64,000 nt of DNA, taken from IMG/VR virus record IMGVR_UViG_3300035670_000189, positions 1 to 64,000 of that record; one strand, given 5' to 3'. Of this stretch, positions 33,495 to 63,533 are shown one piece after another. The translations under genes were made by a program, and so were the position numbers. The notes under the pieces were generated by a model, which saw only the letters and a list, made by a program, of their open reading frames with translations, did not search any database and was not told the origin of the DNA. The DNA is from a virus. Every line of letters begins with the position of its first letter. The stretch's first letter is position 1.

Positions 33495-36400
33495 ATGACT
33501 CTCCAAGAAGTGCTGACCGCGCTACGCAACGCAGACGCAGCCGGTGATGTCGAAGCAGCGAGACGGTTGGCACAGATTGCGGAGTCAATGCAGTCACAGG
33601 CCAGCCAGTACGACGTCCAGACACAGGATATCGACCGCCGCTTAGCCGAGCTACGCGCTCAAAAGATCAAGCCGGAAACGACGTTTGGCGGCGAAGTCAA
33701 GGAAGCGTTCAAGGGCGTGGTGCCCGGTGCCATTGGCCTGCTTGAAACAGCAGGAACTGGTATCAGCGCACTGCTGCCTGACGAGACTGAGAAGTCCGCA
33801 CGCGAGAAGATCAAAGAGATCGCCGGTATCGCCAAGAAGCCGTTTGAAGCGGCTGAAGGCTACGAGGATTCTGTCGGTCGCCGACTCGGTGAAGGTCTGG
33901 GTTCGACCCTGCCGTTCTTTGCCGCTGGCCCACTGGGTCTGGCCGGGCGCGTCGGTGCCGCTGGTCTGGGTGTGTCTGCTGGTGCAGGCGAAGCCCGGCA
34001 GCGTGCCGAAGCCGAAGGAGCCACAGGCGAAGCCCGTGCAACCGCAACCCTGATGGGCGCACCTACTGGCCTGCTCGACTTGCTGGCCCCCAACATCGGC
34101 CCACTCAAGAACATCATCACCACGGCATTGGCCCGTGGCGGTATCGAAGGCGCAACCGAAGCTGCCCAGCAAGTTGCCCAGAACCTGATTGCCAAGGGCT
34201 TGTACAAGCCTGAGCAGGCAGTCGTCGAGGGCGCAGGCGAAGAAGGTGCGTACGGTGCTGGTGTCGGTGCCATTGCCAGTGTGATTCTGGACTTGACCCT
34301 TGGACGCAAGGCACGTGGCCGAGCCACCCCGGGTGAAACAGAGGATACCCGTACTGAGGGTACCCCTCCGGCGGGGCCGACGGCTGAGCGCCCACAGGGT
34401 GAGTTGTTCCCCAGTGAATTGGAAACCGCGCAGCGCGAGCTTGAGTCCGTCATGGGGCCGACAAAGCCCGTGGCCGAGGAGCCTGCACCTGCCGAGCGTA
34501 CCGCTGCCGAAGCTGGCCAGATGTCCTTGTTCGAGGGCGAAGCTGGCCCGAGCGAACTCGAAACCACGCAGCCTGATCTGTTTGGTGAGATCGTGCCCAC
34601 ACGGGAAGAAGCTACCACGGAAGCCGTCAAAGAACCGACAGCCGAACGTGACACGCAAACCCGGGACATGATCGACGAGTTGGAAACGGCCCAGATCGAA
34701 GAACTCGAAGCTGAGGAGCAATCGGCCCGGCTGCGCAAGGAACTCGAAACCCAAAAGGCCGAGGCCAAGCAAGAACGACTCAAGATGGAGTCGGACATCG
34801 CCGAACTGGATGGGCGCATCAAGGCCAAGGAGCAAAAGACAACTGAGGACAAGCGCCTCGGTTTGCTGCTGCCAATCATCGAGTCCGAAGTCAAGAACAT
34901 CCCCAAGGCGTTCGTGCAGTCCCTCAAGCGTGAGGGGTTCACCAATGCCAACCTGACCGACCGTGAGCGTCAACTGATCAACCGTGCGTATGACGTGCGG
35001 CTGGCAGAAGAACCGGTGCCGGTGGAAGAACCCACGATTGCACAGCCCAAGGGCCAAGTTGAGGCGCTGGAAGCGCAGGTGCCTGAGAAGAAGGCACGGC
35101 GTGAGCCTGAGCAGATGAGTTTTCCCGGCATGGGCAAACCCAAGGGTGCCAAAGCCGAGCCTGTTGTTGAGGAAGAAGTTGCGGTCGAGGAGAAGCCGTT
35201 TGCCACGGTGCTGTCTGCCGACGTGCTGGCACAGACGGGCCTGCCCAAGCAGTCTGGTTTCTACAAGCAACTGATCGACATGGATATGGCCGACCCGGCG
35301 CAGCAGCCAGTGGTGGCCAACATCTTTGCCAAGGTGCGCACGAACCCCAACGTCAAGCCTGCAACCAAAGATGCCATCGAGAACATGGCGATGCAAGCAT
35401 TTGGCGGGCTGGCCAAGCAACAGGAACTGTTCCCCACGAAGGGTGCAAAACCTGCCAAAGCAAAGAAGGAGGCACCGAGTGAAAAGTCAGGAACTGACGC
35501 AGAGCCAACTGGAACTCGCGCTGGTGATCGTGAACCAAGCGTATCAAAACCAGCAGCCGCTGAGCGCCCTGCTGCTCCCAAGCGAACTGAGGCACCTAAG
35601 CCCAGTGGACTGGGAGATACTGGACAACCTGTACGTGACGCTGGAAAGCGAGAAAGCGTGGAGCCGGGTGCACTGAAGAAGGAAGCACCGAAAGCGGAAG
35701 CCAAGGCTGAGCCCAAAGCCGAAGCCAAGGCTGAAGCTAAGCCTACTCGCACCAAGGAAACATCGCAGGGTAAAGGACTCCCACTTGGGGACAACGCATA
35801 CCAAGCTGCCAAAGAGGCTGGTGAAGTTGACCACGCCATCCGAACTCTTGCCGCTGATGCGTACCTGAACACTGCTGAGGATTACAGCGTCAAGAAGGCA
35901 CAGCAGATGATTGCTGCGCTGGAAGAAGGCAACGTGCCTGAACTGAAGTTCGGCACCAACAACTCCAACGGCCCGGGCACAGGCGGCAAGTTTGCCAAGG
36001 AGTTCTACGCCTCGCTGGACAAGGACGAGCAAGCTAAATTCCGCAAGGAGTTGCAAGACTTCCTGTATTCGGAGATCAAGTCCAAAAACTTCATGGACGC
36101 ACATAACCGTCAGCAGGCTGCTACCCGTGAGGAAGCCGCCGCGTACGACGAGAACTCTCCGCTGTACAAAGACATCAAGGGTGCAGCCACAGCGTTGCAC
36201 CCCATGGTCGTGCGCATGCTCAAGGACAACAACCTCGTGGGAGCCCTGCGCTTCATCGGGCAGCAGCAACTTGGCCGTGCGTCTACCGTGGCGTCTCAAC
36301 TGGCCGACGTGCTCGGCGGGGTCAACGTCGAAATCTCTGACTTCAGCAAGCCGAGTGGCAAGTACGAGAAGCTGCTCAAGCAGTACCCGGAAGCCGCTGG

Positions 36401-39400
36401 TTCGTCTGGCGCGTACATCACCACCAAGGGTGGCGAGCGCACGATCTTGTTGGACTCCAAGACGGGCATGGACGTGTGGTCACTCTTGCACGAGGCCACC
36501 CACGGTGCAGTCAACCAGACCCTGAACAACACCAACAGCCCCCTGACCAAACAACTCACGCAGTTGTTCAACGACGTGAAGGACTCGCTCGATACCGCCT
36601 ACGGTGCCAGCGATGTCAAGGAGTTCGCCGCCGAAGCCTTCAGCAATCCAGCCTTCCAACAGAAGCTGGCCGCGATCAACCCCAAGGGGGAGAAGATCAC
36701 TGCATGGCAACGCTTTGTGCACGCGGTCAAGAACTACCTGCGCAACATGATCGGCCTGCCGACCAAGGGTATGGGCACCGCGCTGGATTCTGCCGACCAC
36801 ATGATCGAGGCTATCGTCAACGGTCACCCCGGCACCAGCAACTCCCTGCAAACTGTGTCCCTGCTCAACAAGGGCGCAGAGTTCTTCACCGCCATGGGCA
36901 AACGTGCTGAGTCACTGCCCGGCCTGAACGCCGAGCGTGTTGGTCGCATCCATGAGATGTTCAGCGGCACCCTGCCGAATACCGTGAAGAACGTGATTCG
37001 CCAAGCCCTGCCCCTGAACGCCCTCGTCGAGGTGGCGCAGAAGTACATCCCCATGGCCCCCAAGCTGGACGTGATGGTGGGTGAGCGTGCTGGCGCAGAG
37101 AACCGCCGCAACCAAGCGATTGAGCCGGTCATTGACCGCGTGAACGCATGGGCTAAGGCCAACCCCGCGCTGGTGGACAAGCTCAACAACGTCATCTACC
37201 GCAGCACGCTCGACCAAGTTGACCCCGGCAAGCCTCGTGCAGAGTACGCAGGCAAGATGGACGACAGCGGCAACCGCAAGGACGAGGCATGGGATGCCAT
37301 GCAAGCTGACTGGAAAGCCCTCGGTGCATCCGGCCAGACGACCTACAAGCTGATGCGCGATACGTACAAGAAGATGTACGACGATGTTCGCCGTGTGCTG
37401 GACACCCGCATTGACGACGCACTGGAGGATGCCGACACCCGCAAGAAGGTGAAGGCTGAAATCTACCAGCGTCTGTTTGCATCCGGCCACATCGAGCCGT
37501 ACTTCCCCCTGACCCGTAGCGGTAAGTACTGGCTGTCCTACACGTTGGGCAACGAGTTCTTCGTTGAAGCGTTTGAGACCAACTACCAGCGTGACCAAGC
37601 TGTAAAAGAACTTAGGACAGAAGGTGCTACCGACGTGCAGCGGTTCGCCAATCTGAATCAGGTCAACTACCGCAAGGCACCGGCCACATCCTTCGTGAAC
37701 AACGTGCTGCGCACGCTCGAAGCCAACAAGGTCAACGCCAACGTGACTGAAGAAGTTATGCGGTTGTTCCTCAACACCCTGCCCGAGACATCGTTCGCAC
37801 AGTCGTTCCGCAAGCGTAAAGGCACGCTGGGTTTCCAACGTGACGCTGTGGGCGCACTGCGCATGAAGGCGTTTAACCTGTCTCGCCAACTCTCCAACAT
37901 GGAGTACGGTGCCAAGCTGGAAAAGCTACGCGCCGACATGAAAGAGTACGTGCGCAGCCAAGGCAACCCGGATGAGGCAGTGGAGATGATGAACGAGCTT
38001 GACGCTCGTATCGACTACGCCATCAGCCCACAGGTTCCCCAGTGGTCAAAGCTGGCCACGTCGTTCGGCTTCAACATGACACTGGGTTTCAACGTGTCCT
38101 CCGCACTGGTGAACTTGTCCCAGATTCCGCTGGTCGTGATGCCTTACCTTGGTGGTAAGTACGGCTACTCTGAGACGAGCAAGGCACTCGGTCGCGCCTC
38201 CCGCTACTTCGCTGGCTCGGGATTCAAGCGTGAAGTTGAGATGCTGGTGCCCACCGATAAGGGCGAGAAGACGATGAAGGTGCGTGCCTTCCCGTCGCTG
38301 GACAACTACGACTTCGATGCCAAGGATGCACCAAAACATCTGAAGGTGTTGTCTGAAGTTGCTGGCGCTCGCGGGCAGCTTAACCGCTCACAGGTGTACG
38401 ACATTCTGGACGTGGATGAGAGCCAGAGCGTGATGACCAAGATCAACGCAGCTTCCGGTTTCGTGTTCCACCACGGTGAACGCATGAACCGCCAAGTCGC
38501 CATGATCGCCGCGTACGAGTTGGAGCTTCAGCGACTGGTGGGTGCAGGTAAAGACCTTACCAGTGCATCCGAGAAACAGATGCGCCAAGCCGCCGACTAC
38601 GCTGTGTACGTGACCGAATTGACCAACGGTGGCACCGCTGCCGCCGCTGCGCCGCGTCTTGCGCAAAGCGCGATCGGCAAGGTTGTGTTCATGTACAAAC
38701 GCTATGGCGCGTCGATGTACTACATGCTGTTCAAGACGGCACGTGAGGCGCTGAAGTCTGCTGATCCAGAAGTTCGCAAAGCCGCCAAGCGCCAGATCGC
38801 TGGTATCTACGCATCGTCCGCACTGATGGCTGGCGTGCAGGGTATCCCGATGTTCGGTATGGCCGCGATGATCTACAACCTGATCTTCAAAGACGATGAC
38901 GACGATGACTTCGACACCGCCGCACGCAAGTATCTGGGTGAAGGCATTTATAGCGGTGCACTCAACGCACTGACTGGGCTCGAAATCTCTGGCCGTATCG
39001 GTCTGTCCGACCTGCTGTTCCGTGACACCAACACCCGCCCAAGCGACAGCGTGATGCTCAGCTTGATGGAAGTTGCTGGTGGCCCAGTGATCGGTGTGGC
39101 AAGCCGAGTCGAGCGTGGACTGAAGCTGATTGGTGAAGGTCACATCGAGCGTGGTGTGGAGCAGATTCTGCCCAGCGCCATTGGCAACGGACTCAAGGCG
39201 GTGCGGTTTGCAACGGAGGGTGCCAACACCCTGCGCGGTGACCCGATCGCCGGAGAGATCGGCCCGTGGAACTCCTTTGCTCAGTTCTTCGGGTTCGCAC
39301 CCGCCGAGTACACCCGCCAGCTTGAGATCAACTCTGCGCTCAAGAACATCGAGCGCACCGCGCTGGAAGATCGCACCAAGTTGTTGCGTAACTACTATGT

Positions 39401-39638
39401 GGCCATGCGCATGGGCGACACACAGGAAGCGGCAAACATTGCCGCCGAGATGCTGAAGTACAACCGCAAGCACCCCGGTGCCGCGATCACGGCAGACACT
39501 GTGAAGAAGTCCATGGCGCAACACATGAAAACAACCAAGGACATGTACCACGGCATCACGCTGAGCAAGTCCCTGCGTCCACAACTCCTGATGAACGCCG
39601 CCGAATACGACGACGGTATCAAGCTGATCGAGGAATAA
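33495..39638 (+). CDS. Polyvalent internal virion protein with HExxH and LPD38-like C-terminus
   Basis: The 2047-aa protein has an N-terminal Gly/Ala-rich hydrophobic part (about 60-275), acidic coiled coils (about 280-570) and a low-complexity K/A/P/E linker (about 650-760) that overlaps a nested gene. A metallopeptidase-like HEATH (H999-H1003) sits in VWSLLHEATHG. Long helical regions follow, then a C-terminal hydrophobic segment with GIYASSALMAGVQGIPMFGM and an Asp run, resembling LPD38. Polyvalent proteins enter the cell with the DNA. It is the last late gene. Confidence 0.75.
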   Translation: MTLQEVLTALRNADAAGDVEAARRLAQIAESMQSQASQYDVQTQDIDRRLAELRAQKIKPETTFGGEVKEAFKGVVPGAIGLLETAGTGISALLPDETEKSAREKIKEIAGIAKKPFEAAEGYEDSVGRRLGEGLGSTLPFFAAGPLGLAGRVGAAGLGVSAGAGEARQRAEAEGATGEARATATLMGAPTGLLDLLAPNIGPLKNIITTALARGGIEGATEAAQQVAQNLIAKGLYKPEQAVVEGAGEEGAYGAGVGAIASVILDLTLGRKARGRATPGETEDTRTEGTPPAGPTAERPQGELFPSELETAQRELESVMGPTKPVAEEPAPAERTAAEAGQMSLFEGEAGPSELETTQPDLFGEIVPTREEATTEAVKEPTAERDTQTRDMIDELETAQIEELEAEEQSARLRKELETQKAEAKQERLKMESDIAELDGRIKAKEQKTTEDKRLGLLLPIIESEVKNIPKAFVQSLKREGFTNANLTDRERQLINRAYDVRLAEEPVPVEEPTIAQPKGQVEALEAQVPEKKARREPEQMSFPGMGKPKGAKAEPVVEEEVAVEEKPFATVLSADVLAQTGLPKQSGFYKQLIDMDMADPAQQPVVANIFAKVRTNPNVKPATKDAIENMAMQAFGGLAKQQELFPTKGAKPAKAKKEAPSEKSGTDAEPTGTRAGDREPSVSKPAAAERPAAPKRTEAPKPSGLGDTGQPVRDAGKRESVEPGALKKEAPKAEAKAEPKAEAKAEAKPTRTKETSQGKGLPLGDNAYQAAKEAGEVDHAIRTLAADAYLNTAEDYSVKKAQQMIAALEEGNVPELKFGTNNSNGPGTGGKFAKEFYASLDKDEQAKFRKELQDFLYSEIKSKNFMDAHNRQQAATREEAAAYDENSPLYKDIKGAATALHPMVVRMLKDNNLVGALRFIGQQQLGRASTVASQLADVLGGVNVEISDFSKPSGKYEKLLKQYPEAAGSSGAYITTKGGERTILLDSKTGMDVWSLLHEATHGAVNQTLNNTNSPLTKQLTQLFNDVKDSLDTAYGASDVKEFAAEAFSNPAFQQKLAAINPKGEKITAWQRFVHAVKNYLRNMIGLPTKGMGTALDSADHMIEAIVNGHPGTSNSLQTVSLLNKGAEFFTAMGKRAESLPGLNAERVGRIHEMFSGTLPNTVKNVIRQALPLNALVEVAQKYIPMAPKLDVMVGERAGAENRRNQAIEPVIDRVNAWAKANPALVDKLNNVIYRSTLDQVDPGKPRAEYAGKMDDSGNRKDEAWDAMQADWKALGASGQTTYKLMRDTYKKMYDDVRRVLDTRIDDALEDADTRKKVKAEIYQRLFASGHIEPYFPLTRSGKYWLSYTLGNEFFVEAFETNYQRDQAVKELRTEGATDVQRFANLNQVNYRKAPATSFVNNVLRTLEANKVNANVTEEVMRLFLNTLPETSFAQSFRKRKGTLGFQRDAVGALRMKAFNLSRQLSNMEYGAKLEKLRADMKEYVRSQGNPDEAVEMMNELDARIDYAISPQVPQWSKLATSFGFNMTLGFNVSSALVNLSQIPLVVMPYLGGKYGYSETSKALGRASRYFAGSGFKREVEMLVPTDKGEKTMKVRAFPSLDNYDFDAKDAPKHLKVLSEVAGARGQLNRSQVYDILDVDESQSVMTKINAASGFVFHHGERMNRQVAMIAAYELELQRLVGAGKDLTSASEKQMRQAADYAVYVTELTNGGTAAAAAPRLAQSAIGKVVFMYKRYGASMYYMLFKTAREALKSADPEVRKAAKRQIAGIYASSALMAGVQGIPMFGMAAMIYNLIFKDDDDDDFDTAARKYLGEGIYSGALNALTGLEISGRIGLSDLLFRDTNTRPSDSVMLSLMEVAGGPVIGVASRVERGLKLIGEGHIERGVEQILPSAIGNGLKAVRFATEGANTLRGDPIAGEIGPWNSFAQFFGFAPAEYTRQLEINSALKNIERTALEDRTKLLRNYYVAMRMGDTQEAANIAAEMLKYNRKHPGAAITADTVKKSMAQHMKTTKDMYHGITLSKSLRPQLLMNAAEYDDGIKLIEE
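35479..35676 (+). CDS. Nested small gene in +1 frame of the 2047-codon gene
   Basis: The 65-aa product starts at GTG 35479 with a perfect SD, AAGGAGG (35466-35472), 6 nt upstream. The sequence is well-formed and helical (QLELALVIVNQAYQNQQPLS, then LSPVDWEILDNLY, ending WSRVH) and resembles a small phage protein family I remember from marine phages. The overlapping frame of the big gene is low-complexity exactly here, as if it had read through a former independent gene. Function unknown. Confidence 0.7.
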   Translation: MKSQELTQSQLELALVIVNQAYQNQQPLSALLLPSELRHLSPVDWEILDNLYVTLESEKAWSRVH

Positions 39639-54043: not shown

Positions 54044-54631
54044 TCAAGCGGACGTGGACGCAACTGATGCAGTGGTAGGGGCATACACCCAGAACACTGA
54101 CTCAGATATTCGACGACCTACACCAGCCAACTCTCCAGTAGGCGGGGTGCTATCCAGCACCATCAACACGGCAAGACGTTCCTTAACCCAGTCGGGTAGA
54201 TCGTCCACTCGATCATAGTGTCCCTCCAGTGCCGAGTCAACACTTTCGAGACCGAAACAGACCACATCAATACCCTCGGCGTAAACACGCACCCGGTATG
54301 TCTTGTCATCTGGCACTGTGCCCCCTTGCGACGTGCCCCCTTCGGGCGTGGTCGATACCATGTACAAGTACCCACCCGAGGCGATGTACAAGTCCTTGCG
54401 CTTGACGTGCTCCACTGCCTTACCACGCTCGGCCCAATCACGACCGCTCAGCAGGACACGTCGGGCTGTCCTGTCAGCAGGCTCGTTCGGGTACCACTTC
54501 TCAGGGTCAGCATGATGTGCCATTGCAAGGTAGGCGTCAGCGTGGTGATCTGTTATGGGTACGCCCTTGTCGATCATCATCTGTACCATGCGTAGCTCGG
54601 TCAGTCCGACCTGAAACTTGCGCCCACTCAT
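54044..54631 (-). CDS. Unknown phage protein
   Basis: The 195-aa protein opens with a helical front (VGLTELRMVQMMIDKG), a KWYPNEPADRTARR segment, a central beta region (YLYMVSTTPEGGTSQ), and a Ser/Thr/Ala-rich end. It overlaps the upstream gene's stop (ATGA). No recognised domain. Confidence 0.6.
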   Translation of the reverse strand: MSGRKFQVGLTELRMVQMMIDKGVPITDHHADAYLAMAHHADPEKWYPNEPADRTARRVLLSGRDWAERGKAVEHVKRKDLYIASGGYLYMVSTTPEGGTSQGGTVPDDKTYRVRVYAEGIDVVCFGLESVDSALEGHYDRVDDLPDWVKERLAVLMVLDSTPPTGELAGVGRRISESVFWVYAPTTASVASTSA

Positions 54632-55596
54632 TGCAACACCCAGTAGGATGTTGGCGACACGCGCATGCCCAGACCTTCGACGAACGCCTCGCCCTCCAGC
54701 ATAGACAGCGCGGCGATCTTGTGCCCAATGTCCTCGGGCAACTCCTCGGGGGTGTATGCCTTGATCTCGCCCAAGTTGCGGACAGTCGCACGCTTCATGT
54801 CCAGTACCTCAGCCACGTCAAACATCTGACCACCTGCGAAGTCGCGCACCAGCACGTACCACCCGTGGTGGGCTTGGTTCTGCCGCTCCACTGACTCCTT
54901 GTACTTGGCAATCAGGTCACGTGCAACGTCACCCAGCACAGGGTTGTTGAACTGATACCCCGAGTTGATGATCGCTTCCAACTCCATCTCGAACGACAGG
55001 TTGTTGACGAAACTCTCCTTGGCACTCCGATGCTCAGACGATGCTGTCCACATAGCGGATGACAACTTATGCTGAAAGTCAGACAGAGACATCATGGCCA
55101 CCTCGGGTGTACCGTAGCGGCGCAGATACTTCTTGGCGTTCTTGACTGCCTTGGTCACGTCCACACTCATCGCCATGTAGTACTGATCATGATCTTCACC
55201 GAACTTCTCGTTCTTGATACCACGTGCATACACCGCGAACTTGTCATCACCCGTGCCCGACACAGCAAAATCGGCGTAGCCCACCAGACCCAGCGCGTAC
55301 TCGTCGCCGGGGTAGTACGCCCACAGGGTTTGCAGAACCACGTTGCTACCCTTCCACACGGTCTTGGCACCACTGCGGCTGTACCCGAACTTGATACCGC
55401 GCAACTCTTTGCGCAGTGCTTCACAGAACGTCGCTGTCTGCACGTCCACACCATGCACCCCATCTACGTTTCGGGTCACCATGGCGTAGTACCGCTCGTC
55501 CGACTCGTTGGTTGTGCGCACCTCGGACTTGGCTTTGTCGATGTACTTCTGGGTCTCCGACTCCAGTCGGGACACTTTCAAATGGTTGAAACTCAT
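54628..55596 (-). CDS. Unknown phage protein (322 aa)
   Basis: ATG 55596 is used (AAGG, 7 nt upstream; 1 nt after the previous stop). The protein is alpha/beta with conserved-looking LWAYYPGDEYALGLVGYADF and DKFAVYARGIKNEKF, a helical middle, and WYVLVRDFAGGQMF near the end. Size and soluble character suggest an intracellular role. It is paired with the next upstream gene (55598-56545). Confidence 0.6.
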   Translation of the reverse strand: MSFNHLKVSRLESETQKYIDKAKSEVRTTNESDERYYAMVTRNVDGVHGVDVQTATFCEALRKELRGIKFGYSRSGAKTVWKGSNVVLQTLWAYYPGDEYALGLVGYADFAVSGTGDDKFAVYARGIKNEKFGEDHDQYYMAMSVDVTKAVKNAKKYLRRYGTPEVAMMSLSDFQHKLSSAMWTASSEHRSAKESFVNNLSFEMELEAIINSGYQFNNPVLGDVARDLIAKYKESVERQNQAHHGWYVLVRDFAGGQMFDVAEVLDMKRATVRNLGEIKAYTPEELPEDIGHKIAALSMLEGEAFVEGLGMRVSPTSYWVLQ

Positions 55597-55597
55597 G

Positions 55598-56545
55598 TCA
55601 CACCTTCTCAATCTTGTAGAAGCCAAGGGCTTGGTTCATCACGCGGTTGTATGCCGCCTTGATACTGCGGATGTCATCTTGCGATTCAATCGCACGCTTG
55701 CCACCGATGTCGGCGATCACCATTGCGGCCACGGCTACACGCAGTGGATGTTCTTCCTGTGTGACGATCTCACGCACCAGTTCAGTCGGCATGTGCTTGA
55801 CACTGCGAACCCACGGGTTATCAATACGCCCCCCTGCGGGTAACTGCGCGATGCGCCATTCCCTGATCAGCGTTGCATACTCTTGCTGACCACCCCATGT
55901 GGTGTCAATCATTGGTGCGATCGCCGCACAGTACGTGTAGAAGCTGTCCACACGTTCACGCCATTGCTTCTTGAGTTCTTTGTCCACGCGCTTCACCTCT
56001 ACTTCAAGTTCTTCCCCTACACGGGTAAACGTACCGTCACCGTTCACACGGAACATGAGGTACACGTTGTCGTCTGTAAACTTCTTCGTGCCGTGATCAA
56101 ACCGCACGTCACACTTGGGCAAGCGGAACTCCGCATACCCTGTCGGTGTCTTGGCACGCACCCAGTGCTGGCCCTGCTGGTTGTAGTGAAACCGCATGTC
56201 CATTGGCAGGTGCCAGTGCAAGAAGTTATAGCGAGTCACACTGACGTTGCGTCTGGTGTGGTTGCGTATACGGATGAAATCGCCGTCCTCGCGCCGCATC
56301 CACGTGATCGCCGCCATGGTGTTCTCCCACGCATGTTGCTCGGGATGGATCGAGCCCCAGATGGTGTTGCCATAGTTGCCGTCGAGCAGTGCGTAGGTGT
56401 TCTCGTCGATCTTCTTGATGCGCTCCCACTTGCGGCCACGGTCACCGATAGGACGCACGTCGTGCTCCTTCGTGTGATGCTTGCTGATCATGGGCTTGGT
56501 GCGTTCGTACCACGACACCACTTGTTCAAACTTGTCGAATCTCAT
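55598..56545 (-). CDS. Unknown phage protein (315 aa)
   Basis: The Trp/His/Arg-rich protein has NTYALLDGNYGNTIWGS, FLHWHLPMDMRFHYNQQG and a helical C-terminus with VAVAAMVIADIGGKRAIESQ. It forms a unit with the following gene (TGACATG junction). I recognise no family and cannot assign a function. Confidence 0.6.
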   Translation of the reverse strand: MRFDKFEQVVSWYERTKPMISKHHTKEHDVRPIGDRGRKWERIKKIDENTYALLDGNYGNTIWGSIHPEQHAWENTMAAITWMRREDGDFIRIRNHTRRNVSVTRYNFLHWHLPMDMRFHYNQQGQHWVRAKTPTGYAEFRLPKCDVRFDHGTKKFTDDNVYLMFRVNGDGTFTRVGEELEVEVKRVDKELKKQWRERVDSFYTYCAAIAPMIDTTWGGQQEYATLIREWRIAQLPAGGRIDNPWVRSVKHMPTELVREIVTQEEHPLRVAVAAMVIADIGGKRAIESQDDIRSIKAAYNRVMNQALGFYKIEKV

Positions 56546-57278: not shown

Positions 57279-57538
57279 TTCGTTGCTCCTTCGCATTGTT
57301 TACGTAGCGCACTCAGCGTCTCCTCACAGGTACGCCCGTTTGCAATCTCGATGAACTCATCAGGCTCACCATCCACTGTGTTGCCCGTGTCGGCGTAGAC
57401 AACAATCGTGTCACCGATGTCTTCCATACTTACCTTCACGTTGTGTTCGACGAACCACTGCTCATCTTCTGGCAGTACGTTGCGCACGTCGATCACTTCG
57501 GTGCGCCCATCAGGGCGCTTGTAAAGCGTCACATTCAT
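57275..57538 (-). CDS. Small acidic protein, unknown
   Basis: The 87-aa protein has beta strands (MNVTLYKRPDGRTEVIDV; DTIVVYADTG) and a helical end, with acidic character. AGGAGCAACGAA precedes ATG 57538; both ends overlap neighbours. DNA-mimic or inhibitor function is conceivable but unsupported. Confidence 0.6.
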   Translation of the reverse strand: MNVTLYKRPDGRTEVIDVRNVLPEDEQWFVEHNVKVSMEDIGDTIVVYADTGNTVDGEPDEFIEIANGRTCEETLSALRKQCEGATK

Positions 57539-58011
57539 TTCGTTGCTCCTTGCTTGGGCCAGCCGAGCTTGCTCAGGTCAGCCATCACGTTTGCCAGTGC
57601 TGGCAGGTTCTTGGTCGGTTCCATCTCAGTGGGGTAGTACTTCTTGAACTCAGGGAACGTGGTCATAGCTTGCTTGAGCGTGTTGATGCCACTGAACGCA
57701 TGCGTCAGCTTGCGGTGCATGTCGCTACGTTCTTGCTCCTCTTGCTTGTACGGCGCAGTGATTTCTTTGATGACGTCGTTGCTCACGTCACCCACGATGA
57801 CATCGTGCCAGTTGAAGTACTGGTTGGTGTAGGCCACACTCGTGCGGCGCAGTGCATCGGGCTTAGTCTTGTACAGCTTGCGCACCTCGGGCGACATGGC
57901 TTTGACGATCTTGGCGATGATGTCCTCGGCGCGTTTCACCTTGTCGATAGGTGGGGTGTCCTGCATGATGGCGCGGACGATAGCTTCTTTGTGCAGTTTG
58001 GTCAGTTTCAT
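57535..58011 (-). CDS. Nmad5-like phage protein (tentative)
   Basis: The 158-aa protein starts MKLTKLHKEAIVRAIMQDTP, the kind of opening found in the Nmad5 (nucleotide modification-associated) family, followed by a charged helical region and YTNQYFNWHDVIVGDVSN. Nmad5 proteins occur near DNA-modification enzymes; none is evident here, so the assignment is weak. GGAGAAACGAA precedes ATG 58011. Confidence 0.45.
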   Translation of the reverse strand: MKLTKLHKEAIVRAIMQDTPPIDKVKRAEDIIAKIVKAMSPEVRKLYKTKPDALRRTSVAYTNQYFNWHDVIVGDVSNDVIKEITAPYKQEEQERSDMHRKLTHAFSGINTLKQAMTTFPEFKKYYPTEMEPTKNLPALANVMADLSKLGWPKQGATK

Positions 58012-58024
58012 TTCGTTTCTCCAG

Positions 58025-59254
58025 TTAGTCTTCAATGTGAATAGTCTTGCCGATGTCAGCCACGGCATGCTTGTTACCTTGGATGCACCACAGCACGGGT
58101 ACAGTCCATGTGCCCCAGCTACCGCCGAGGTATCCGTCAGTCAGCACCACCACCGCTTGCGGCTTAATGGCTTGCTCTGTCATGTACTCAGGCACACACT
58201 CGACCATGGTGCCGCCACCACCAGCAGGCTTGGTACTGCTCGTGATGTTCTCGACCTCGGTGCCCACGTACTTCTCATCGGCGCACACCGCCGTGTCCCA
58301 GTACAGCAGACGCACGCAGTCTGGCTTGACCTGATCACAGATGCCCTTGACCTCGCCGAGGAACTGCGCCAACTCACGGCCACCGATGGAGCCCGATGTG
58401 TCGATTGCGATGACAAGTTCGCCCACCTGTTCACTTACCCCGGAGGGTAAGTAGTAACCGCTACTGACAAATCGCCTGTTCGGGCGCTTCCACGTTGAGT
58501 AGTCATTGCCTGCACACGTTGTGCTGATGAACTCACGCAGTGCTTCGCGCCAGTCGATCTTGGTCTGCAACAAGTCATCGAACATGCGGTCACCGCCTGT
58601 GCCCAACTTGCCAGCCATGAGCGCACCCTGACGGATGGCCTCATCGAGGTCACGTTCAAGCGACTTGCGTTCTTCGACAGTCATGTCCTGCGCACCTTCC
58701 CAGTCGTGGGTATCGAGCCCAGAGCCGGGCGAGGAGATGCCAGTTCCCGAGCCGCCGCCCGAGCCATCGCCACCACCGCCGCCTTGTGGGGGGTTCTCCT
58801 TCTTCAGGATGTTGTACACCTGCGCGGAGTCCATGCCACGGAAGCGCACGTCGAGTGCACCCACGGCCTTGCCCCCCTTGGATGGCATGACTGCGAACCC
58901 GTCCTTGTTGTCGTCGGTGATCTTGATGTTGATCACGTAGTCACACGCCACGTTGGCCAGAGGTGCGCACTCATCGTAGAGGTGACGCCACGTGGTCAGG
59001 TGTTTGTACAACTTGTGATAGCACTCGTGCAGGACAAGGAAGCGCAACTCAGCGTCGTTGAGTCCTTCAACAAAGGCGCGTCCATACATCTCATCACGTC
59101 CGTTCGTACACGCTGTAGGAATGGCATCGTTGATCTCACGCTTGCCCACCATGAGCACCCCTGCGAGGGCGACATACTTGGGGCTTGCCATGATGTCCAC
59201 GACTGCCTTGGTCAGCCGCTGTTCAGCGGTCAGTTGTTTACCGATCATCAGCAT
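58025..59254 (-). CDS. VWA domain protein with N-terminal HExxH metallopeptidase-like domain
   Basis: The 409-aa protein has an N-terminal DUF2201-like metallopeptidase region with H76-E-x-x-H80 (VLHECYHKLYKH), a Gly/Ser-rich linker (157-172), and a C-terminal von Willebrand A domain with a complete MIDAS: D285-T-S287-G-S289, T349 and D373 in LTDGY. Such proteins pair with MoxR AAA+ ATPases, which remodel VWA-bound targets. It follows the AAA+ and microprotein genes. ATG 59254 has GGAG 6 nt upstream. Confidence 0.85.
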   Translation of the reverse strand: MLMIGKQLTAEQRLTKAVVDIMASPKYVALAGVLMVGKREINDAIPTACTNGRDEMYGRAFVEGLNDAELRFLVLHECYHKLYKHLTTWRHLYDECAPLANVACDYVINIKITDDNKDGFAVMPSKGGKAVGALDVRFRGMDSAQVYNILKKENPPQGGGGGDGSGGGSGTGISSPGSGLDTHDWEGAQDMTVEERKSLERDLDEAIRQGALMAGKLGTGGDRMFDDLLQTKIDWREALREFISTTCAGNDYSTWKRPNRRFVSSGYYLPSGVSEQVGELVIAIDTSGSIGGRELAQFLGEVKGICDQVKPDCVRLLYWDTAVCADEKYVGTEVENITSSTKPAGGGGTMVECVPEYMTEQAIKPQAVVVLTDGYLGGSWGTWTVPVLWCIQGNKHAVADIGKTIHIED

Positions 59255-59255
59255 T

Positions 59256-59369
59256 TCACACTCCAATCCATCTCACGGCAAAAAAGCCGATACTGGTACA
59301 CACCATCGCGATGGCGACCTCGCGCAACACCATACGGCGTACTTGCTTCTTCTGTTCATTGGTCAACAT
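59256..59369 (-). CDS. 37-residue membrane microprotein between AAA+ and VWA genes
   Basis: An ATG at 59369 with SD GAGGACAACC opens a 37-aa frame: a basic helix (NEQKKQVRRMVLREV) then a membrane segment (AIAMVCTSIGFFAV) and RWIGV. The stop lies 1 nt before the VWA start (TGAAATG). It could anchor the AAA+/VWA complex at the membrane. It is too short for standard gene calling; its placement and SD support it. Confidence 0.6.
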   Translation of the reverse strand: MLTNEQKKQVRRMVLREVAIAMVCTSIGFFAVRWIGV

Positions 59370-59377
59370 GGTTGTCC

Positions 59378-60472
59378 TCACTTCTTATCAGCCGCGAACA
59401 TGTAGTTGTTGGCCATGGCCCACTGTGTGAACTTCTTGTTGGTCATCACGAGGGCTTGCTTGTTGTACTTCGGGTTGCGCACGCCATTGGCGAACAGACC
59501 CTGCGCTTCTTTGTCAAGACGCGCCATGTAGTCCATCCACGCATCCATCCAGTCACGGTCGATCGTGGACAGCGTGCGGTACACCACCATGCACACAGCC
59601 GCATCGCTCTCGGGCACCTTGGCTTGCATCGGGTCTTTCTTGATCGAGTCAAGGCTCGGCAGTTGGTCGCTCAGCTTGACGAACGCCATCAAGTCCATGG
59701 CCGCACGCTCACCGATCGTGCCCATCAGCATCGCAGTCAGGCTCTGGTCGTCCATGCCATCACGGACTTTCAGCCAGTCGCTTGCCGCTTCGAGTGAACG
59801 CGGTGTCACGAACGCAGTACGTGGTGCCTTCGGGTGGAAGATGTACGGGTTCTGGTCGGGGTCTTTCACGTCCTCGAACGAGTGGAACAGTTGCGGGTTG
59901 TCTTTGCACCAGCCCAGCAGGGTGTGATCGACGCCGTTGTTGATGCCCCATTCAATCCATTCCATGTTGGTCGGCTTGCGTGACGTGACCACGGTGATGC
60001 GGTTGCGTGCATGTGGTGGCAGGATGTCACCCACGCCCTCGGCACCGAGGTTGGTCGTGGCAAACACTAACGAGTCAGGGTGCAACTCGTAACTACCCAT
60101 CTTGCGCTCAAGCAACAGACGGAGCATGGCGTTCTTGACTGCGGGGTTGGCCTTGCCGTACTCGTCAACCATCAGGATGATCGGCTTGTTCAGGTGCAGA
60201 CCCAACTCCTCGTTGGTGACGTAGCGCACGAACCCCTCGTCGTCGATCGCTTGCAACTGCGGGATGGTGATGTCACCGAGGTCTTTGGTCGTGCAGTCGA
60301 AGTAACACGCCGTGTGCGTTGGCAGGGTGGACTTGAGTGCCTTGAGCAGGGAGGACTTGCCTGTACCCATGTGACCTTGCACGAGCATGGTGCGCTTCTT
60401 GCCCCCGAGTCGGATGGCAGTCTCGATCTGGTCGAGGCCCAGTGCGTACATGGCGATTGCTTGATTAGACAT
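59378..60472 (-). CDS. MoxR-type AAA+ ATPase
   Basis: The 364-aa protein has Walker A GHMGTGKSS (33-41), Walker B ILMVDE (99-104), sensor 1 VFATTN (136-141) and PPHARNRI, then a C-terminal helical lid. MoxR/CbbQ-type ATPases act with VWA proteins to remodel or activate target complexes using ATP. AAGGAAACATC precedes the ATG. Upstream lies a 17-bp palindrome and the DUF3150-like gene; downstream the microprotein and VWA gene. Residues for ATP binding and hydrolysis are intact. Confidence 0.88.
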   Translation of the reverse strand: MSNQAIAMYALGLDQIETAIRLGGKKRTMLVQGHMGTGKSSLLKALKSTLPTHTACYFDCTTKDLGDITIPQLQAIDDEGFVRYVTNEELGLHLNKPIILMVDEYGKANPAVKNAMLRLLLERKMGSYELHPDSLVFATTNLGAEGVGDILPPHARNRITVVTSRKPTNMEWIEWGINNGVDHTLLGWCKDNPQLFHSFEDVKDPDQNPYIFHPKAPRTAFVTPRSLEAASDWLKVRDGMDDQSLTAMLMGTIGERAAMDLMAFVKLSDQLPSLDSIKKDPMQAKVPESDAAVCMVVYRTLSTIDRDWMDAWMDYMARLDKEAQGLFANGVRNPKYNKQALVMTNKKFTQWAMANNYMFAADKK

Positions 60473-60549
60473 GATGTTTCCTTAGTTTCAGTTGAGTTTG
60501 ATTACGGGTGACTTACGTCTTTACCCGCTTGATTGGTTTGTAGTAACTT

Positions 60550-60566
60550 GTTAGTCGGCGACTAAC
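60550..60566. promoter_or_regulatory. 17-bp palindrome, copy 1 (perfect)
   Basis: GTTAGTCGGCGACTAAC is a perfect 8+1+8 palindrome in the ~95-nt leader between the DUF3150-like and AAA+ genes. Copies 2 and 3 lie at 61511 and 63439. Confidence 0.8.
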
Positions 60567-60567
60567 A

Positions 60568-61458
60568 TCACATTCCCAGTCCGGGCAGGTTGTCGATGAT
60601 CTTCTTGACCTCATCCACTTGCCGCTTGGTCTGGGCACGCAGGTATGCGTCCTCACGCAGGGCGTCAGGGGTCACACCACGCAGTGCTTGGTCGAGCTTG
60701 CGCTGGGCTTCGCTCATCACGGGGTCGCCTGTCACGTTGCACGCATCGAGCAGGTCGATGATGTCGGTGACGTTGGACACCAGCGAGTCACGAAACACCT
60801 TCTTTGTCTGGCTGTCGGCGTAGTCGAGGCGTTCGCTCATCTTACTCAGCGCATCGTGGGCACGAGTCCACACGTCGTTCATGGCCTTGGTCAACTGCTC
60901 ACCGTAGAACTTCTCATACTGCTCACGCATGGACTGGGCCGCCTCGTTCTCGATGTCGAGCCGCCAGTCGCCAGCGTCAGGCATGGGCACAGCCACGTAG
61001 CGGAACCGGAACTTGTCAGTCAGCGCCTCGCGTGACGGGTACTCGTCGGGGTTGAACAGTGCACCGAGCTTGAGTTGGGCGTTCTGAATCTCCCAGTCGT
61101 ACGCATCGAGGAACACGGTCACCAGTCGGGTGAACTCGGTTTGCAGGGCGGTCATGCTCTCGTGGTACTTGAAGTACTGCTTCGTGGGGCACAGCCGCAT
61201 GCCAAGGTCTGACCACGGCATTGTCATGGCGTAGTGTGCGTTGCGTGCATTGGCCGCGAACTTCTGCACTGCATCCAATTCGGCGCAGTCGCCGAGCAAC
61301 TTCTTGGACACGTTGGCCACGCCGGTGGCGGCGTTGTTCTGTGTGGTGACATCCTTGGATGCACGCTTGTCGAGCTTGCGGCCCGTCCATGTACTGATGG
61401 ACAGATCAATGAGCACTGCACTGGAGGCGATGCTCGGGGCTGAAATGTTTGGGTTCAT
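60568..61458 (-). CDS. DUF3150-like partner of the AAA+/VWA module
   Basis: The 296-aa mostly helical protein opens with SSAVLIDLSISTWTGRKLDK (about 12-31), resembling DUF3150 proteins, which occur beside CbbQ/MoxR ATPases and VWA proteins on mobile elements. The rest includes ALFNPDEYPSREALTDKF, FRYVAVPMPDAGDW and a long coiled C-terminus. GGAGAAAGAA precedes the ATG. It is the first gene after promoter P2, so it is likely co-expressed with the AAA+ and VWA proteins. Function unknown. Confidence 0.65.
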   Translation of the reverse strand: MNPNISAPSIASSAVLIDLSISTWTGRKLDKRASKDVTTQNNAATGVANVSKKLLGDCAELDAVQKFAANARNAHYAMTMPWSDLGMRLCPTKQYFKYHESMTALQTEFTRLVTVFLDAYDWEIQNAQLKLGALFNPDEYPSREALTDKFRFRYVAVPMPDAGDWRLDIENEAAQSMREQYEKFYGEQLTKAMNDVWTRAHDALSKMSERLDYADSQTKKVFRDSLVSNVTDIIDLLDACNVTGDPVMSEAQRKLDQALRGVTPDALREDAYLRAQTKRQVDEVKKIIDNLPGLGM

Positions 61459-61510
61459 TTCTTTCTCCTGAAAGGTTGGTTGGTTCGTGCACCGTGAGGT
61501 GCTTCGTTCT

Positions 61511-61527
61511 GTTAGTCGGCGGCTAAC
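61511..61527. promoter_or_regulatory. 17-bp palindrome, copy 2
   Basis: GTTAGTCGGCGGCTAAC, with one mismatch in the second arm, lies in the 5' leader of the DUF3150-like gene, about 35 nt downstream of the predicted P2 start. Confidence 0.75.
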
Positions 61528-61567
61528 ACTGGGTTGGTTATCACTGGACGCCGTATCCAGTATTTGT

Positions 61568-61596
61568 ATTATGCCACACTTGCCTATCTAAGTCAA
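61568..61596 (-). promoter_or_regulatory. Leftward promoter P2 (extended -10)
   Basis: TTGACT (61596-61591), 17 nt, CATAAT (61573-61568) preceded by TGG, an extended -10. It nearly duplicates P1 at 63505-63533, including a GTGATGTTTTGT block upstream (plus-strand reading). It drives the DUF3150-like/AAA+/VWA genes. Confidence 0.85.
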
Positions 61597-61614
61597 GTGT
61601 TTCGTGATGTTTTG

Positions 61615-61797
61615 TTAGCGTTCGTGGTGTTTTATGAGGATACATTCGCTGTTCTTGGCGACGGCACGCACTGCACCTTTCGAGTCGATGTATGTCTGCC
61701 CACACCCGGCGGTGTAGTCCAGCAGGGCCACGAGCGTGAACCCCATGAGCACCAGCCCGATGATGGCTTGCACCAGCCACGTGATGAACGCTCTCAT
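61615..61797 (-). CDS. Small membrane protein with Cys-rich tail
   Basis: The 60-aa protein has an N-terminal membrane helix (ITWLVQAIIGLVLMGFTLVA) and a short periplasmic-type tail with YTAGCGQTYIDSKG and SECILI. ATG 61797 overlaps the upstream stop. It may be exported and disulphide-bonded. Last gene of the P1 operon. Confidence 0.6.
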   Translation of the reverse strand: MRAFITWLVQAIIGLVLMGFTLVALLDYTAGCGQTYIDSKGAVRAVAKNSECILIKHHER

Positions 61798-62000
61798 TTG
61801 CTTTCCTCCCAGCCGAAGGCTGTCACGTTTGATGGTTGGCTCTGCTCGGTGTAGCGGTACATCTGCAACGCCTTGGTTTTGCTCAGCCCACGCCACTCGG
61901 TCGTCGCACCGTCTGCTGTCCTGACGTAGAACATGTAACGGTGCTTGGCCGGTGCGCTCCCAAACATGTCAATGGTTGCGTTGTCTTCAGGCTGTTTCAT
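61794..62000 (-). CDS. Small protein, unknown
   Basis: The 68-aa protein has HRYMFYVRTADGATTEWRGL and then a helix (KTKALQMYRYTEQS). Coupled to both neighbours by overlaps. No domain recognised. Confidence 0.6.
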   Translation of the reverse strand: MKQPEDNATIDMFGSAPAKHRYMFYVRTADGATTEWRGLSKTKALQMYRYTEQSQPSNVTAFGWEESK

Positions 62001-62235
62001 CTTTGCTCTCCTGTTCTTTCTTCACGAGTGCGCCAGCGGCGGCGCTGAACGCTTGGCTCACGTTGAGCAGGTCTGCGAGTTCCCTCTGCACCTGTTTCAG
62101 CACATTGGCGGCGATCACTTTGCTCATGCCCTCCATGAGGGCGGTGGCGATCTGCGGCTTGCGCCGCATGGCCTTGCGCAGGATGTCGAGGGCGTTCTTC
62201 TCCTCATATGTCAGCGTGGCGCGTGCTTCAGTCAT
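61987..62235 (-). CDS. Small helical protein, unknown
   Basis: The 82-aa protein is almost entirely helical, basic at the front (NALDILRKAMRRKPQIATAL) and acidic at the end. It overlaps neighbours at both ends. No domain recognised. Confidence 0.55.
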   Translation of the reverse strand: MTEARATLTYEEKNALDILRKAMRRKPQIATALMEGMSKVIAANVLKQVQRELADLLNVSQAFSAAAGALVKKEQESKDETA

Positions 62236-62470
62236 TTGCTTTCCTTTCGAGCATCTGGTTGTAGGTGTGGTTGTCGGTCGGCTTGCCGTTGCACATCATG
62301 TTGTAGGCGTGGCGCACGTCGCGTGCTTCGTCCTTGGTATCGCACCGTGCGATCTCAATGCGTGTGTCCAGTCGTTGCCCCTCGAACTGATTGCCCGGCC
62401 TGTCCCACCGTTCGGCAGTTGCCCACCGAAACCACCCATCGTGGTCTTTGTAAACCACAAACCCGCTCAT
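62228..62470 (-). CDS. Small protein, unknown
   Basis: The 80-aa protein has a beta-type opening (GFVVYKDHDGWFRWATAERW) and a charged helical end. Coupled by overlap with both neighbours. No family known to me. Confidence 0.55.
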   Translation of the reverse strand: MSGFVVYKDHDGWFRWATAERWDRPGNQFEGQRLDTRIEIARCDTKDEARDVRHAYNMMCNGKPTDNHTYNQMLERKAND

Positions 62471-62814
62471 CCTCGGCTCCCCGCCGCCACGCCTGCGATG
62501 CCATCACGCACGAGTGCTTGCAACATGGCCGTGGTCATCGGCATGAGCTTGACGTACGACGGGCGTGCTTGGCTTTGGTGGCGGGTTGTGCTCTGGCTGT
62601 ACTTGCCCTCGTTCTCGTACCAGTGCACCTCACCGTTGTCGCCCACCTCGGCGACATAGATCGGGAAGTGTGGCCCGTAGCTGTACACCACGTAGATGTC
62701 AGTGTGCCCGTGGCTTGCCGTGCGCCGCTCGGCGTACAGGTTGCTCCCCTTGAACGGTTGGCGTGCTTCGACGAACTTGCGTGCGTTCTTGTTGGCTATC
62801 AGGTGAGTTGTCAT
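62467..62814 (-). CDS. Conserved small phage protein, unknown
   Basis: The 115-aa protein includes HTDIYVVYSYGPHFPIYVAE and WYENEGKYSQSTTRHQSQAR, a pattern I recall in many phage genomes (DUF8033-like, tentative). ATGA overlap with the upstream gene. Possibly an early host-takeover protein. Confidence 0.6.
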   Translation of the reverse strand: MTTHLIANKNARKFVEARQPFKGSNLYAERRTASHGHTDIYVVYSYGPHFPIYVAEVGDNGEVHWYENEGKYSQSTTRHQSQARPSYVKLMPMTTAMLQALVRDGIAGVAAGSRG

Positions 62815-62993
62815 GGCGTTCCCTTTCGTTGGTTGGTGGTGGCTGAATTGAAAACTTCTCGTGCGAGTTCATGCACCTTCCTCAGCACGTCCTCGGGCGT
62901 TTGCATGTTGCCGATTGGTGGACGAGTCCAGTTGCGTATTACCCAAAGGGCGTGGAGCGCGGGGTCTGTTGGCGGCTTGAATTCGGTGTTCAT
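62811..62993 (-). CDS. Small protein, unknown
   Basis: The 60-aa protein contains PALHALWVIRNWTRPPIG and a helical PEDVLRKVHELAREVF. ATGA overlaps on both sides support translation. No domain recognised. Confidence 0.55.
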   Translation of the reverse strand: MNTEFKPPTDPALHALWVIRNWTRPPIGNMQTPEDVLRKVHELAREVFNSATTNQRKGTP

Positions 62994-63214
62994 GTTGTCC
63001 TCTTGGGGTTGAGTTGTTTAAGAAGTTCTGTATCGGCGATGTAAAAGTAATTACTTTTATTCATCGGGGCGATAGTGTGCTTGACGCGCTGGGCGGCTGT
63101 CTCGCCGCATGACAGGCACGTGCGGTAGCCGAGCCGGGCTCGGGCCGGAGGCACACGCTCTGCATAGCACTCGGTGCAGATGAGTTGGTGATAGTGGTGG
63201 GTGGAGTCAGGCAT
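62990..63214 (-). CDS. Small zinc-ribbon protein
   Basis: The 74-aa protein has CTEC and CLSC pairs about 20 residues apart, giving a four-Cys zinc ribbon, with His-rich HHYHQ just before. ATG 63214 has GAGG upstream; the longer frame is shadow coding. Early small zinc proteins often bind host RNA polymerase or nucleic acid; that is inference. Confidence 0.65.
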   Translation of the reverse strand: MPDSTHHYHQLICTECYAERVPPARARLGYRTCLSCGETAAQRVKHTIAPMNKSNYFYIADTELLKQLNPKRTT

Positions 63215-63425
63215 GTGCCACCTCGAAGTTGCCAATCTCAAGGCAGTTGAGCAGATAACCCCGCTCGGTGTGGTCGAGGCGGGATGCACGGATGATGTGC
63301 TGTGCACGGGTTGCGGCGTCGGTGGGTTGCACCTCACCTTTGAACTCCACGGTGTAGCGTGCTTGGGTTGAACCGTCCGGCTGGCGGAACGGCGCGATGG
63401 ATATTGCTGTGCGTTGAGTTGTCAT
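63207..63425 (-). CDS. First gene of the P1 operon, small unknown protein
   Basis: The 72-aa alpha/beta protein has QARYTVEFKGEVQPTDAATR and a helical RAQHIIRASRLDHTERG. AAGGAGCCACAGC precedes the ATG, and the third palindrome lies directly upstream of this SD. Likely an early gene; function unknown. Confidence 0.6.
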   Translation of the reverse strand: MTTQRTAISIAPFRQPDGSTQARYTVEFKGEVQPTDAATRAQHIIRASRLDHTERGYLLNCLEIGNFEVAHA

Positions 63426-63438
63426 GCTGTGGCTCCTT

Positions 63439-63455
63439 GTTAGCCGCCGACTAAC
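63439..63455. promoter_or_regulatory. 17-bp palindrome, copy 3
   Basis: GTTAGCCGCCGACTAAC, with one mismatch, lies between promoter P1 and the SD of the first gene of that operon. Confidence 0.75.
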
Positions 63456-63504
63456 ACGATGTCAGTCTGTGCGGCGTTGGGCCGTTCATCGACCCAACAC
63501 CTAT

Positions 63505-63533
63505 ATTATGCCACAGTATCTTATCTAAGTCAA
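63505..63533 (-). promoter_or_regulatory. Leftward promoter P1 (extended -10)
   Basis: TTGACT (63533-63528), 17 nt, CATAAT (63510-63505) preceded by TGG. Nearly identical to P2. It drives the small genes from 63425 leftward to 61615. Confidence 0.85.

Follow-up and report, generated by a model that had tools for sequence, protein, structure and literature searches.

A gene triad of DUF3150, MoxR-type AAA+ and VWA-metallopeptidase families in an aquatic phage family: a candidate early remodelling protease shared with plasmids

Background

What does a phage do with a MoxR-type ATPase and a VWA protein that carries a metallopeptidase motif, both encoded beside a gene of the DUF3150 family? The question is raised by a viral genome of which nearly all was analyzed (IMGVR_UViG_3300035670_000189, positions 1 to 64,000 of a record of 65,669 bases; this stretch of 64,000 nucleotides is called the window). 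The original prediction, made from the DNA sequence alone, placed four genes at positions 58025-61458 and assigned them to one dedicated machine, in which a 37-residue protein would serve as membrane anchor. All four open reading frames (ORFs) are present there on the minus strand (Table 1).

Results and discussion

Genomic context

The structural genes (terminase, portal, capsid, tail) are on the rightward strand and the DNA-metabolism genes (primase, helicase, polymerase, exonuclease) on the leftward strand. The DUF3150, AAA+ and VWA genes are located near the beginning of the leftward block, on the same strand as the DNA-metabolism genes and opposite to the structural genes. The last gene on the structural strand (33495-39638) encodes a protein of 2047 residues with an LPD39 polyvalent-protein domain. 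As a weak hint to the host, triads are found on one contig binned as Methylophilaceae and on another binned as an uncultured bacterium.

Table 1. Features of the window in and around the gene triad
Feature	Coordinates	Strand	Evidence or position
DUF3150-family protein, 296 aa	60568..61458	-	PF11348 match
MoxR-type AAA+ ATPase, 364 aa	59378..60472	-	motifs, AAA_5, phrog_1297
37-aa ORF, one hydrophobic stretch	59256..59369	-	relatives only in identical sequence
VWA-metallopeptidase protein (DUF2201_N + DUF2201), 409 aa	58025..59254	-	HExxH, MIDAS, phrog_1314
d6, downstream gene, 315 aa	55598..56545	-	in 40/57 relatives with room
d7, downstream gene, 323-332 aa	54628..55626	-	in 50/50 relatives with room
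d8, downstream gene, 195 aa	54044..54631	-	C-terminal domain as in d7
Palindrome copy	60549..60567		directly 3' of DUF3150 stop codon
Palindrome copy	61510..61528		between promoter-like site and DUF3150 gene
Palindrome copy	63438..63456		downstream of second promoter-like site
Sigma-70-like promoter site	61568..61596	-	upstream of module
Promoter-like site, second copy	63505..63533	-

Linkage of the three genes

Scans of IMG/VR returned more than 200 loci and at least 584 relatives of the DUF3150 protein. Linkage was counted over deduplicated loci with enough sequence, all from one viral family, and the counts describe linkage inside that lineage: the DUF3150 gene is beside the AAA+ gene in 104/104 loci, the VWA-metallopeptidase gene follows the AAA+ gene in 92/92, and the DUF3150 gene is accompanied by both partners in 87/87. 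The order of the genes is DUF-AAA-VWA in 91 loci, AAA-DUF-VWA in seven and AAA-VWA-DUF in one, the cluster being kept throughout. Because the order varies, and because the same trio is found in cyanophage MinM2 and on Burkholderiales plasmids, the three proteins are likely to be functionally linked. Co-occurrence of all four genes had been predicted; it holds without exception in the family for DUF3150, AAA+ and VWA, which supports a dedicated MoxR-VWA machine with DUF3150, and fails for the microprotein. A gene at 57535-58011 encodes the C-terminal part of nucleotide modification associated domain 5 (Nmad5, E 8e-9); an Nmad5-like neighbour was rejected as a component of the module, being next to it in 1/80.

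Families, motifs and predicted folds

The assignment to DUF3150 was confirmed by a match to PF11348 (E 9.7e-7, 28.8 bits against a cut-off of 24.9) that covers only the first 160 of 257 model positions; the same model is matched by 38/53 relatives. An AlphaFold2 model of this protein is mainly helical. Compared with solved structures, it had no match below E 0.001, and its matches among viral predicted structures are mostly unnamed proteins, of which the best is a DUF3150 protein. In the literature library searched, no paper names DUF3150.

The ATPase has Walker A, Walker B and an arginine finger, in agreement with the predicted MoxR-type AAA+ protein with intact Walker motifs, as well as a FATTN sensor. 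It matches AAA_5 (22.6 bits against a cut-off of 22.0) and phrog_1297 (E 3e-45), and no CbbQ_C domain was matched in it. Among 106 AAA+ relatives, Walker A is conserved in all, Walker B in 103 and the arginine finger in 102.

The third protein has the predicted full MIDAS (DxSxS) and HExxH motifs, and matches DUF2201_N (PF13203, putative metallopeptidase) and DUF2201 (PF09967, VWA-like) at 74.8 and 62.1 bits, above the cut-offs; an N-x-A-x-D motif is found downstream of HExxH. Among its relatives, which include N4-like, jumbo-phage and plasmid proteins, HExxH is conserved in 95/95 and DxSxS in 94/95. The best solved matches to its model include the MIDAS domain of MDN1 and NorD in NorQD; a further match to the zincin selecase (E 0.01) may belong to the N-terminal domain. 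Each structure was modelled as a single chain, with moderate confidence (pTM 0.50 and 0.51), and a sequence search of the PDB with the VWA and AAA profiles gave no useful match. The motifs are conserved well enough to predict that the ring is active, that the MIDAS depends on metal and that a zincin site is present. The PHROG label of the VWA family, HNH endonuclease, is unsupported, as the Pfam domains are metallopeptidase and VWA. The same label, apparently wrong, is widely attached to DUF2201 VWA-metallopeptidases (phrog_1314) in many phage records.

Proposed function and alternatives

The proposal that we prefer, with belief and doubt in about equal measure, is that the triad is an early or middle remodelling protease machine directed at a host or DNA-transaction protein and not at virion building. 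The DUF3150, AAA+ and VWA proteins would form one machine. On the model of CbbQ-CbbO, NorQ-NorD and RavA-ViaA, its MoxR ring would dock on the MIDAS of the VWA partner and remodel a captured protein. The zincin-type metallopeptidase of the VWA partner itself would let remodelling end in cleavage, with the Asp of N-x-A-x-D as the likely third zinc ligand, and DUF3150 would be the probable adaptor that brings the target. That target may be a host or DNA-transaction protein, and the action would be accessory and early or middle. A role in host takeover or counter-defence, as raised in the original prediction, is possible. The module is absent from HTVC023P, HTVC027P, DSL-LC04 and 023Pt_psg01, all scanned whole, the terminases of which are 46-48% identical. 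An early-acting remodelling protease is favoured because plasmids carry the module and these four phages with related terminases do not.

Virion maturation, also among the functions first suggested, is unlikely because the module is absent from these four phages with related virion genes (terminase and tail) and present on plasmids, which have no virions. As a chaperone-protease for virion assembly or maturation, the pair would fold and clip structural proteins. This is the role, assembly with proteolysis, proposed for the MoxR/vWA-metallopeptidase pair of group 2.2 jumbo phages, on the analogy of ATV tail chaperones (PMC7824862), and virion genes of roseophage RPP1 are near homologues of the N4 genes gp24 and gp25 (PMC4193335). 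The position of the triad in the early/DNA-metabolism block weighs against it, as does the assignment of the N4 homologues to the middle genes (PMC4193335).

An equally improbable alternative is that the machine is a cofactor of DNA replication or recombination, loading, stripping or degrading proteins on the DNA of mobile elements. In the IncA plasmid pRA1, bet and exo lie between the genes of the triad, and the phage triad shares a strand block with primase, helicase, polymerase and exonuclease. However, the phage and Burkholderiales copies do not adjoin recombinase genes, and deletion of bet, exo, s067, s068 and s070 from SXT cut transfer at most 10-fold (PMC2791158), s067, s068 and s070 being neighbours of bet/exo among which the DUF3150 and VWA genes may be found.

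The 37-residue ORF

That the four genes encode a machine anchored in the membrane by the 37-residue protein is very improbable, and is largely refuted, on sequence evidence, by absent conservation: homologues among relatives were found only in an identical contig, and most of 79 deduplicated AAA+/VWA slots have no such microprotein ORF. In its favour, the ORF looks coupled, is preceded by a plausible ribosome-binding site and encodes a single hydrophobic stretch, and unrelated short hydrophobic ORFs occupy the slot in a few relatives. The median AAA+/VWA gap is 62 bp long; in other phages the slot holds a palindrome (49 of the 79), nothing or unrelated ORFs. The 37-residue ORF is best read as putative accessory cargo inserted in a variable slot. 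In five loci, small homeodomain-like putative DNA-binding proteins are encoded between the AAA+ and VWA genes.

Downstream genes

Constant 3' of the VWA gene, and missed in the original prediction, are d7 and d8 (54044-55626), which end in a shared domain of about 90 residues (LP..I..KLAVL..L......GVGRRI....FWV). In 23/24 relatives, two ORFs encode it. A Pfam search gave no match to d7 or d8, and a search of known phages gave none to d7. The two proteins could be partners or substrates of the machine.

Promoter-like sites and the palindrome array

The sigma-70-like site upstream of the module, TTGACT-17-CATAAT with an upstream TG, has a second copy in the window, and both copies share TTGACTTAGATA...GGCATAAT, where 0 are expected in shuffles. 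The predicted promoter of the module's own stands as this duplicated site, whereas promoters in general are not in excess in the region (4 against 4.1 in shuffles); it may be called strong because it is duplicated, not because of the count.

The repeated palindrome that had been predicted is real, with three copies in the window against 0.2 expected, and a collinear contig has two more copies outside the window; its family-wide and genome-specific nature had been overlooked. There are typically 4-11 copies per locus. Short gaps between the DUF3150 and AAA+ genes contain a palindrome with a stem of 7 or more in 55 of 70 cases, compared to 0.7 in shuffles, and many copies lie only a few bases away from the DUF3150 or AAA+ stop codon. 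On long contigs, almost all of the palindromes fall in one stretch of about 5-12 kb, compared with 0 or 1 hits for a control pattern that was reversed.

The arms of the palindromes (in the window, 60549-63456) resemble each other within one genome and differ from one genome to the next: agreement of two copies from the same genome is 0.917, compared to a mean of 0.70 and a maximum of 0.756 over 1000 permutations that ignore kinship. Changes between copies within a genome are one-sided in 170 cases and compensatory in 8, in a search that allowed up to three mismatches, by which some of the copies counted may be due to chance. Because compensatory changes are so rare, DNA sites with a co-evolving factor fit better than RNA hairpins, and a hairpin-only explanation is further disfavoured by broken pairs that have no G-U preference (29 versus 27 A-C). 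An intrinsic terminator was rejected, since the palindrome has no T-run and does not appear in a terminator scan. The helix-turn-helix protein d9 was rejected as specificity factor, as its recognition helix is near-identical where the sites are different, and it does not follow the site class across genomes; a 172-residue protein at the start of the array is a candidate regulator.

These properties are as expected of operators that co-evolve with a putative regulator. Our tentative reading, which we consider somewhat more likely to be wrong than right, is that in a widespread aquatic phage family palindromic operators at stop codons control an early operon that includes the plasmid-shared remodelling protease, and that the sites switch along with the putative regulator, as a dimer-type, stoperator-like code of immunity or timing. 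The genome-specific array makes control of the operon directly testable, and may be a new example of operators that co-evolve with their regulator.

Comparison with known systems

By tblastn, relatives of the VWA protein are found in 757 phage records, of the AAA+ protein in 398 and of the DUF3150 protein in 3. The AAA+/VWA-metallopeptidase pair is already described, as gp24/gp25 of N4 and in jumbo phages; both belong to the core gene set of N4-like phages and count among the middle genes of N4 (PMC4193335). In Schitoviridae, S-TIM5, rV5-like and jumbo phages, as in the window, the AAA+ gene is usually next to or near a gene for a DUF2201-type VWA-metallopeptidase, with HExxH conserved and N-x-A-x-D present in most, at about 23-35% identity to the window proteins. 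Six loci sampled from N4-like, jumbo, S-TIM5 and rV5-like phages have no DUF3150 gene within 5 kb; because such pairs do without a recognisable DUF3150 at that distance, DUF3150 is not a general requirement of the pair. Genes of the gp24/gp25 type occur in hundreds of phages, and the triad bears on their role.

On Burkholderiales plasmids and in cyanophage MinM2/Pag-Yong1, all three families are adjacent or a few kb apart, as in the window, with profile matches at an E-value of about 1e-79 or lower. Their order is AAA-DUF3150-VWA, unlike that of the window, and d7 and d8 were not found in these clusters. In the SXT-like IncA plasmid pRA1, AAA, DUF3150 and VWA genes are likewise annotated close together but are split by bet/exo; the pRA1 ATPase is of the CbbQ_C type and its VWA protein is CobT-like without the DUF2201 metallopeptidase, both unlike the window proteins. 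Direct profile comparison of the window and pRA1 DUF3150 and VWA proteins was not significant, and the IncA DUF3150 protein appears tied to that of the window weakly, through the Pfam model only. The association of DUF3150 with mobile elements, noted in the original prediction, is observed on Burkholderiales plasmids and pRA1, and at the level of protein families DUF3150 is a link between these phages and conjugative plasmids. A triad common to both narrows the options away from virion building and provides tractable carriers.

RavA-ViaA, CbbQ-CbbO and NorQ-NorD combine a MoxR ring with a MIDAS partner, as here. To our knowledge, the partners in these systems have no HExxH domain and the systems have no DUF3150. 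The window pair differs from the RavA-ViaA type in the DUF2201_N peptidase domain of its VWA partner, and from the CbbQ-CbbO and NorQ-NorD type in an ATPase without CbbQ_C.

The nearest parallel to the palindromes is the stoperators of cluster A mycobacteriophages, which are many repressor sites across the genome with a sequence that differs between phages. A stoperator is an asymmetric site to which a monomer binds (PMC9283540, PMC6550527), unlike the palindromes described here, which are dyads; the trait that the two have in common is the presence of multiple genome-specific sites at gene boundaries.
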